Positions 33,899-33,955 of a DNA stretch of 55,424 nt are shown one piece after another; position 1 is the stretch's first letter; each line of letters opens with the position of its first letter. Origin of the DNA: Burkholderiaceae bacterium (GTDB lineage: Bacteria; Pseudomonadota; Gammaproteobacteria; Burkholderiales; Burkholderiaceae_C). The notes beneath the pieces were generated by a model. It made no database searches. It had not been told where the DNA came from and worked only from the letters and a program-made list of their open reading frames with translations. The position numbers and the translations under genes are program-made. The stretch spans positions 1-55,424 of the forward strand of contig JALOSD010000007.1 of NCBI GenBank assembly GCA_025458585.1. Reading direction: 5' to 3'.

Positions 33899-33927
33899 AA
33901 TCTAGTGCGGCCCCCGCAGACTGTCAA
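33899..33927 (-). promoter_or_regulatory. sigma70-like promoter for the bchF operon (TTGACA-N17-TAGATT)
   Basis: Minus strand reads TTGACA gtctgcgggggccgcac TAGATT: perfect -35 box, 17-nt spacer, TAGATT -10 box, upstream of bchF (start 33863). Confidence 0.65.
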
Positions 33928-33955
33928 TCAGGCTAGACGTAAATTGCGCTTGACA
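33922..33955. promoter_or_regulatory. putative PpsR/CrtJ operator, symmetric TGT-N12-ACGT-N12-ACA
   Basis: TGTcaatcaggctagACGTaaattgcgcttgACA: two abutting TGT-N12-ACG sites on opposite strands sharing a central ACGT; resembles the TGTN12ACA motif recognised by PpsR/CrtJ. Confidence 0.6.

Follow-up and report, generated by a model that had tools for sequence, protein, structure and literature searches.

A conserved, overlapping twin operator predicted for PpsR spans the -35 boxes of the divergent bchF and ppaA promoters in a Burkholderiaceae bacterium

In purple bacteria the photosynthesis genes are repressed chiefly by PpsR, a protein whose operator rule was derived from Rhodobacter; the region between bchF and ppaA-ppsR in the Burkholderiaceae DNA analysed here (the window, 55,424 nucleotides) raises the question of whether PpsR may also act at a site that is built differently. 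The first-pass annotation had described in this region two TGT-N12-ACG sites on opposite strands, fused at a shared ACGT. Both the sequence, TGTCAATCAGGCTAGACGTAAATTGCGCTTGACA, and its coordinates proved exact: the element has the form TGT-N12-ACGT-N12-ACA, is 34 bp long, and is made up of two 18-bp palindromes that overlap by 2 bp and have their centres 16 bp apart (Table 1). The bases common to the two sites, however, are only the CG of ACGT and not all four. When the 2.73-Mb genome was searched for TGTCA-N10-ACGT-N10-TGACA with up to two mismatches allowed, this location was the sole match. On the sequence evidence, we consider it likely that the 34-mer is a conserved overlapping twin PpsR operator that covers both -35 boxes, and that two divergent promoters would be closed by PpsR bound there.

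Table 1. Positions of the predicted operator, its parts, and the promoters, genes and separate sites around it
Feature	Position in window	Strand	Basis
Overlapping twin PpsR operator (predicted)	33922..33955		sequence and conservation
bchF-side PpsR palindrome, TGTCAATCAGGCTAGACG	33922..33939		fourth-ranked window position (15.7 bits, R. sphaeroides ChIP matrix)
ppaA-side PpsR palindrome, CGTAAATTGCGCTTGACA	33938..33955		third-ranked window position (17.7 bits, R. sphaeroides ChIP matrix)
CG dinucleotide common to both palindromes	33938..33939		CG in 111/114 overlapping pairs
-35 box TTGACA, bchF promoter	33922..33927	-	promoter scan; invariant in 57 related regions
-10 box TAGATT, bchF promoter	33899..33904	-	promoter scan; conserved in relatives
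-35 box TTGACA, ppaA promoter	33950..33955	+	promoter scan
Candidate -10 box AATCAT, ppaA promoter	33973..33978	+	promoter scan; weakly conserved
bchF, first gene of the bchF-...-puhE operon	33300..33863	-	PF07284, 212 bits
ppaA, encoding a B12-binding antirepressor; N-terminal part missing or in another frame	34405..34992	+	PF02310; deletion vs congeners
ppsR, presumed binder	35057..36481	+	TIGR02040 PpsR-CrtJ, 492 bits; Fis-type HTH and PAS domains
Separate PpsR-like site before bchG, TGTCATCCAGGATTGACA	36516..36533		20.4 bits, rank 2
Separate PpsR-like site before bchG, TGTCAATCTGGATTGACG	36551..36568		21.4 bits, rank 1

Neither half of the 34-mer conforms to the exact TGT-N12-ACA consensus, from which each departs by one change (ACG or CGT), and a plain scan for this consensus was uninformative in the window because it returned three matches against 2.7 expected, none of them at the 34-mer. 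The exact consensus is not a requirement, since bound sites that carry this change have been published for PpsR: Rubrivivax PpsR binds the pucB site TGT-N12-ACG and the crtI site cGT-N12-ACA in vitro (PMC4452267), and the R. sphaeroides prrA site, CGTCAAAGGAAGTTGACA, was bound by PpsR in ChIP (PMC4344238). Moreover, bchF itself is bound or repressed by PpsR/CrtJ in R. sphaeroides, R. capsulatus and Dinoroseobacter (PMC4344238 and PMC10890935 for R. sphaeroides and D. shibae). The sites were scored with a weight matrix derived from 15 ChIP-seq sites of R. sphaeroides PpsR (PMC4344238), which owes nothing to the window. Among the 55,407 window positions the halves of the 34-mer ranked third and fourth, followed by a fifth position at only 7.6 bits, and both scores lie inside the range of the ChIP sites used for the matrix (15.0-29.3 bits), a resemblance in sequence that agrees with the earlier designation of the element as PpsR-like. 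The two sites before bchG that ranked first and second are separated by a 17-bp gap with their centres 35 bp apart, a layout that is neither overlapping nor the classical one with 7-9 bp between palindromes; one of the two ends in ACG. The regulator encoded next to the 34-mer had been taken for PpsR, and its TIGR02040 score of 492 bits, against a cut-off of 275, shows that the genome does encode this protein.

ACGT-centred palindromes are recognized by many factors, and one could envisage that the ACGT core is read by a regulator other than PpsR; the Rhodobacterales, which have PpsR but no ACGT core at bchF/ppaA, would fit such a view. Against it, both halves fit the PpsR matrix, as elsewhere in the 55 kb only the bchG sites do, and where the core has been lost the same place holds a textbook PpsR site. 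We regard a different regulator as highly improbable.

A consensus promoter scan of positions 33800-34200 detected exactly two sigma70-like promoters, both facing outwards, compared with 0.0 in shuffled sequence. One lies on the + strand (33950-33978, TTGACA-17-AATCAT) and the other on the - strand (33927-33899, TTGACA-17-TAGATT); each matches 10 of the 12 box positions, and the 17-nt spacers fall within the 16-18 nt of a divergent sigma70 pair. The outer arms of the 34-mer are complete, outward-facing TTGACA hexamers that form the -35 boxes of both promoters, as the first-pass annotation had proposed. The -10 box on the bchF side was conserved in 160 of 186 sampled bchF upstream regions, where about 1% would be expected by chance, compared with 52 of 186 on the ppaA side (chance, 3%), so the case for two coupled promoters is firmer for bchF than for ppaA. 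A possible second ppaA promoter outside the operator (TTGACT-17-TAGAAC, 34089-34117) lies in a leader stretch that is strikingly conserved in two congeners; as a conserved element this candidate was rejected, being present in only 6 of the 186 relatives, and it appears to be a local feature.

The bchF-side promoter, which the 34-mer overlaps, is that of a photosynthesis operon: bchL, puhB, puhC and acsF were found downstream of bchF, and the operon extends to puhE, as had been claimed. On the right side of the 34-mer, bchG follows ppaA and ppsR. The ppaA gene itself lacks about 200 bp (34190-34450) relative to both congeners (L003, L004), and its N-terminal part (from 34130) and C-terminal part (34405-34992) are in different frames, which indicates either a truncated or broken antirepressor gene or a fault in the assembly of this MAG.

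The first-pass annotation had made its reading depend on the TGT/ACGT/ACA spacing being kept in relatives, and the bchF regions of relatives showed this spacing to be conserved. Of 64 bchF loci in the family and order, 57 had the 34-mer when up to three mismatches were allowed; in these loci the outer TTGACA, the core ACGTC and the bchF -10 box were nearly invariant, and most flanking positions were close to random. The strict pattern occurred once each in 25 of 399 genomes of the order, always between bchF and ppaA, compared with a single genome for the reversed control. In a class-wide scan, a 35-mer with the spacing one too long was found in 2 of 274 genomes, which serves as a rough off-by-one control only. 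Among the 186 sampled bchF upstream regions, 151 carried a C-type twin element by a relaxed half-site criterion; this criterion was used because a stricter definition (left half-site present) gave 26 apparent exceptions, nearly all of which had a recognizable, degenerate half-site. Matrix hits in the 186 regions were offset by 16 bp in 114 cases and by any other distance in no more than 4, and with the site nearest bchF as an anchor the best partner lay at exactly -16 for 147 of 155 C-type sites. No 16-bp pair was detected outside the bchF region in 83 longer photosynthesis loci (645 kb), where close pairs were mostly 24-26 bp apart.

The phylum-wide survey and named genomes placed the twin layout in Beta-, Gamma- and Alphaproteobacteria and in one myxococcal MAG, the groups represented being Hyphomicrobiales, Rhodospirillales, Sphingomonadales, Acetobacterales, Burkholderiales, Chromatiales and a Polyangiaceae MAG. 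The Rhodobacterales have two or three separate, perfect TGT-N12-ACA sites in its place. The arrangement, which the first-pass annotation had set apart from the textbook one, is no oddity of this genome, being the usual layout at bchF/ppaA outside Rhodobacterales. Two MAGs deserve separate mention. In an Oxalobacteraceae MAG (L170), a 2-bp deletion in the core relative to its sister L157 results in a 14-bp offset, and either the spacing has mutated naturally or the assembly is at fault. The myxococcal example (L158) is a bchF with a twin operator in a Polyangiaceae bin, and reflects either mis-binning or a horizontal transfer in which the cluster brought its control region along.

It counts against our interpretation that a role as -35 boxes would by itself be enough to conserve the outer arms, and that only the inner TTTACGTCAA needs PpsR. 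One could suppose that PpsR recognizes the bchF-side palindrome alone, the TGTCAA on the ppaA side being conserved merely as a -35 box and the rest being due to chance. In several genomes (L006, L010, L178) the inner half of the ppaA-side site is indeed degenerate while TGTCAA is kept, and in most relatives the bchF-side site is the better palindrome. The inner positions of the ppaA-side site are nevertheless conserved (A in 95%, T in 70-79% at three positions) although they lie outside both core promoters, and in the window the ppaA-side half scores above the bchF-side half. The supposition also predicts a T, giving a perfect TGT, at the position where a C is seen. We consider a single, bchF-side site quite unlikely.

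The identity of this base follows a pattern in the overlap. Sites that overlap by 2 bp cannot have an intact ACA and an intact TGT at once; TG or CA in the overlap would make one site perfect at the expense of the other, so CG, which costs each site one base, is a compromise. The overlapped dinucleotide was CG in 111 of 114 pairs, and site ends with a partner half-site carried C in 242 cases and T in 8, compared with T in 375 and C in 37 for ends that have no partner, although these counts are not independent and correspond to 11-12 changes on the BchF tree. As only 3 independent pairs on the tree are well supported, a sign test cannot reach significance; the direction of the rule is consistent with both sites being under selection. 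A clade in which the overlap has been lost carries a perfect TGT-N12-ACA together with a TGTAAA half-site at a distance of 25-26 bp, which exceeds 16 by about one helical turn; the second half of this extra site is weak in some members, and the pattern is no more than suggestive.

How PpsR might use such an element can be considered in the light of known systems. The tandem PpsR/CrtJ operators at R. capsulatus bchC and Rubrivivax pucB and crtI likewise have two palindromes of the TGT-N12-ACA type over a core promoter, and they are bound by PpsR/CrtJ with a cooperativity that is sensitive to spacing (PMC5362033, PMC4452267). Their palindromes, however, are separated by 8-9 bp, with 26-27 bp between centres, and act on a single promoter, whereas those of the 34-mer overlap by 2 bp, have CG in common with centres 16 bp apart, and serve two divergent promoters, so that the 34-mer does not belong to the classical tandem class. 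An offset of 16 bp is about 1.5 helical turns and one of 26-27 bp about 2.5, which would give the same rotational relation. Rubrivivax PpsR is a tetramer in solution (PMC4452267).

We infer that PpsR in its repressing state would bind the 34-mer and shut RNA polymerase out of both -35 boxes, the outer half-site of each palindrome doubling as the -35 box of one divergent promoter (bchF operon or ppaA-ppsR). Most likely, two dimers or a tetramer would be bound to the two palindromes at once, on nearly opposite sides of the helix; such an assembly would be geometrically natural because sites whose centres are offset by 16 bp face in about opposite directions. Two dimers fit on opposite faces at other overlapping operators, such as those of the QacR and DtxR/IdeR type, in which the half-sites overlap as is proposed for the 34-mer. 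These protein families are unrelated to PpsR and the likeness rests on general knowledge and geometry, with which the 16-bp offset is compatible.

The main rival explanation is that binding of PpsR to the two palindromes is mutually exclusive: a dimer on the bchF-side palindrome would keep another off the ppaA side, and the element would be a switch between two promoters and not a joint lock. The 2 bp common to the inner half-sites and the presence of one -35 box in each palindrome alone would both accord with this, as would the different responses of bchF and ppaA/ppsR to loss of the sigma factor SP70 in Roseateles depolymerans (PMC10037100). The 16-bp spacing, on the other hand, is kept across several classes with a strictness beyond what mutual exclusion demands, and with centres on about opposite faces there is room for two dimers. 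We therefore find one-at-a-time binding rather unlikely, and prefer joint occupancy of the two palindromes.

The first-pass annotation had also proposed that the expression of ppsR is coupled to that of the bchF-puhE operon. Both -35 boxes do lie inside the 34-mer, but such coupling would not be general, as the operator is kept where ppsR does not adjoin it (Bradyrhizobium, Rhodopseudomonas) and in Chromatiaceae (L120, L123, L139, L159, L176, L200) in which a ppaA gene was not detected in the interval from bchF to ppsR. In five of these six Chromatiaceae the bchF arm reads TTGACG. In Roseateles depolymerans SP70 is needed by bchF and not by ppaA/ppsR (PMC10037100), so the two promoters are not simply yoked.

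PpsR repression at bchF/ppaA has been shown in Rhodobacterales (PMC4344238, PMC10890935), and R. sphaeroides and Dinoroseobacter shibae have the same gene pair with PpsR sites on both promoters. Unlike the 34-mer, these sites are separate and perfect TGT-N12-ACA sequences without an ACGT core, and their starts are mostly about 125-155 bp apart. A search confined to the open literature returned no description of PpsR palindromes that overlap at bchF/ppaA. PpsR repression of bchF is thus already known, and the overlapping layout, judged on the open literature, is apparently new. Analyses of Sediminicoccus KRV36, in which ppaA and ppsR follow PpsR target genes, and of Gemmatimonas phototrophica used a motif library and listed no PpsR site at bchF/ppaA (PMC10949492, PMC11406998). 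In Roseococcus thiosulfatophilus (L196), which is presumably related to KRV36, the twin operator is present without a mismatch, and this provides a direct prediction for KRV36.

Searches with the exact consensus are blind to the twin operator, and if it is the usual form at bchF/ppaA, standard-motif searches miss the central site in most species. Natural variants of the core and of the spacing offer a way to test how DNA is read by PpsR multimers. It is conceivable, and we put this forward tentatively, that the bchF/ppaA node of proteobacterial photosynthesis was ancestrally controlled by the twin operator, a rigid set of four half-sites at which PpsR on both faces of the DNA would close two divergent promoters in one event, and that the separate sites of Rhodobacter may be the derived exception.
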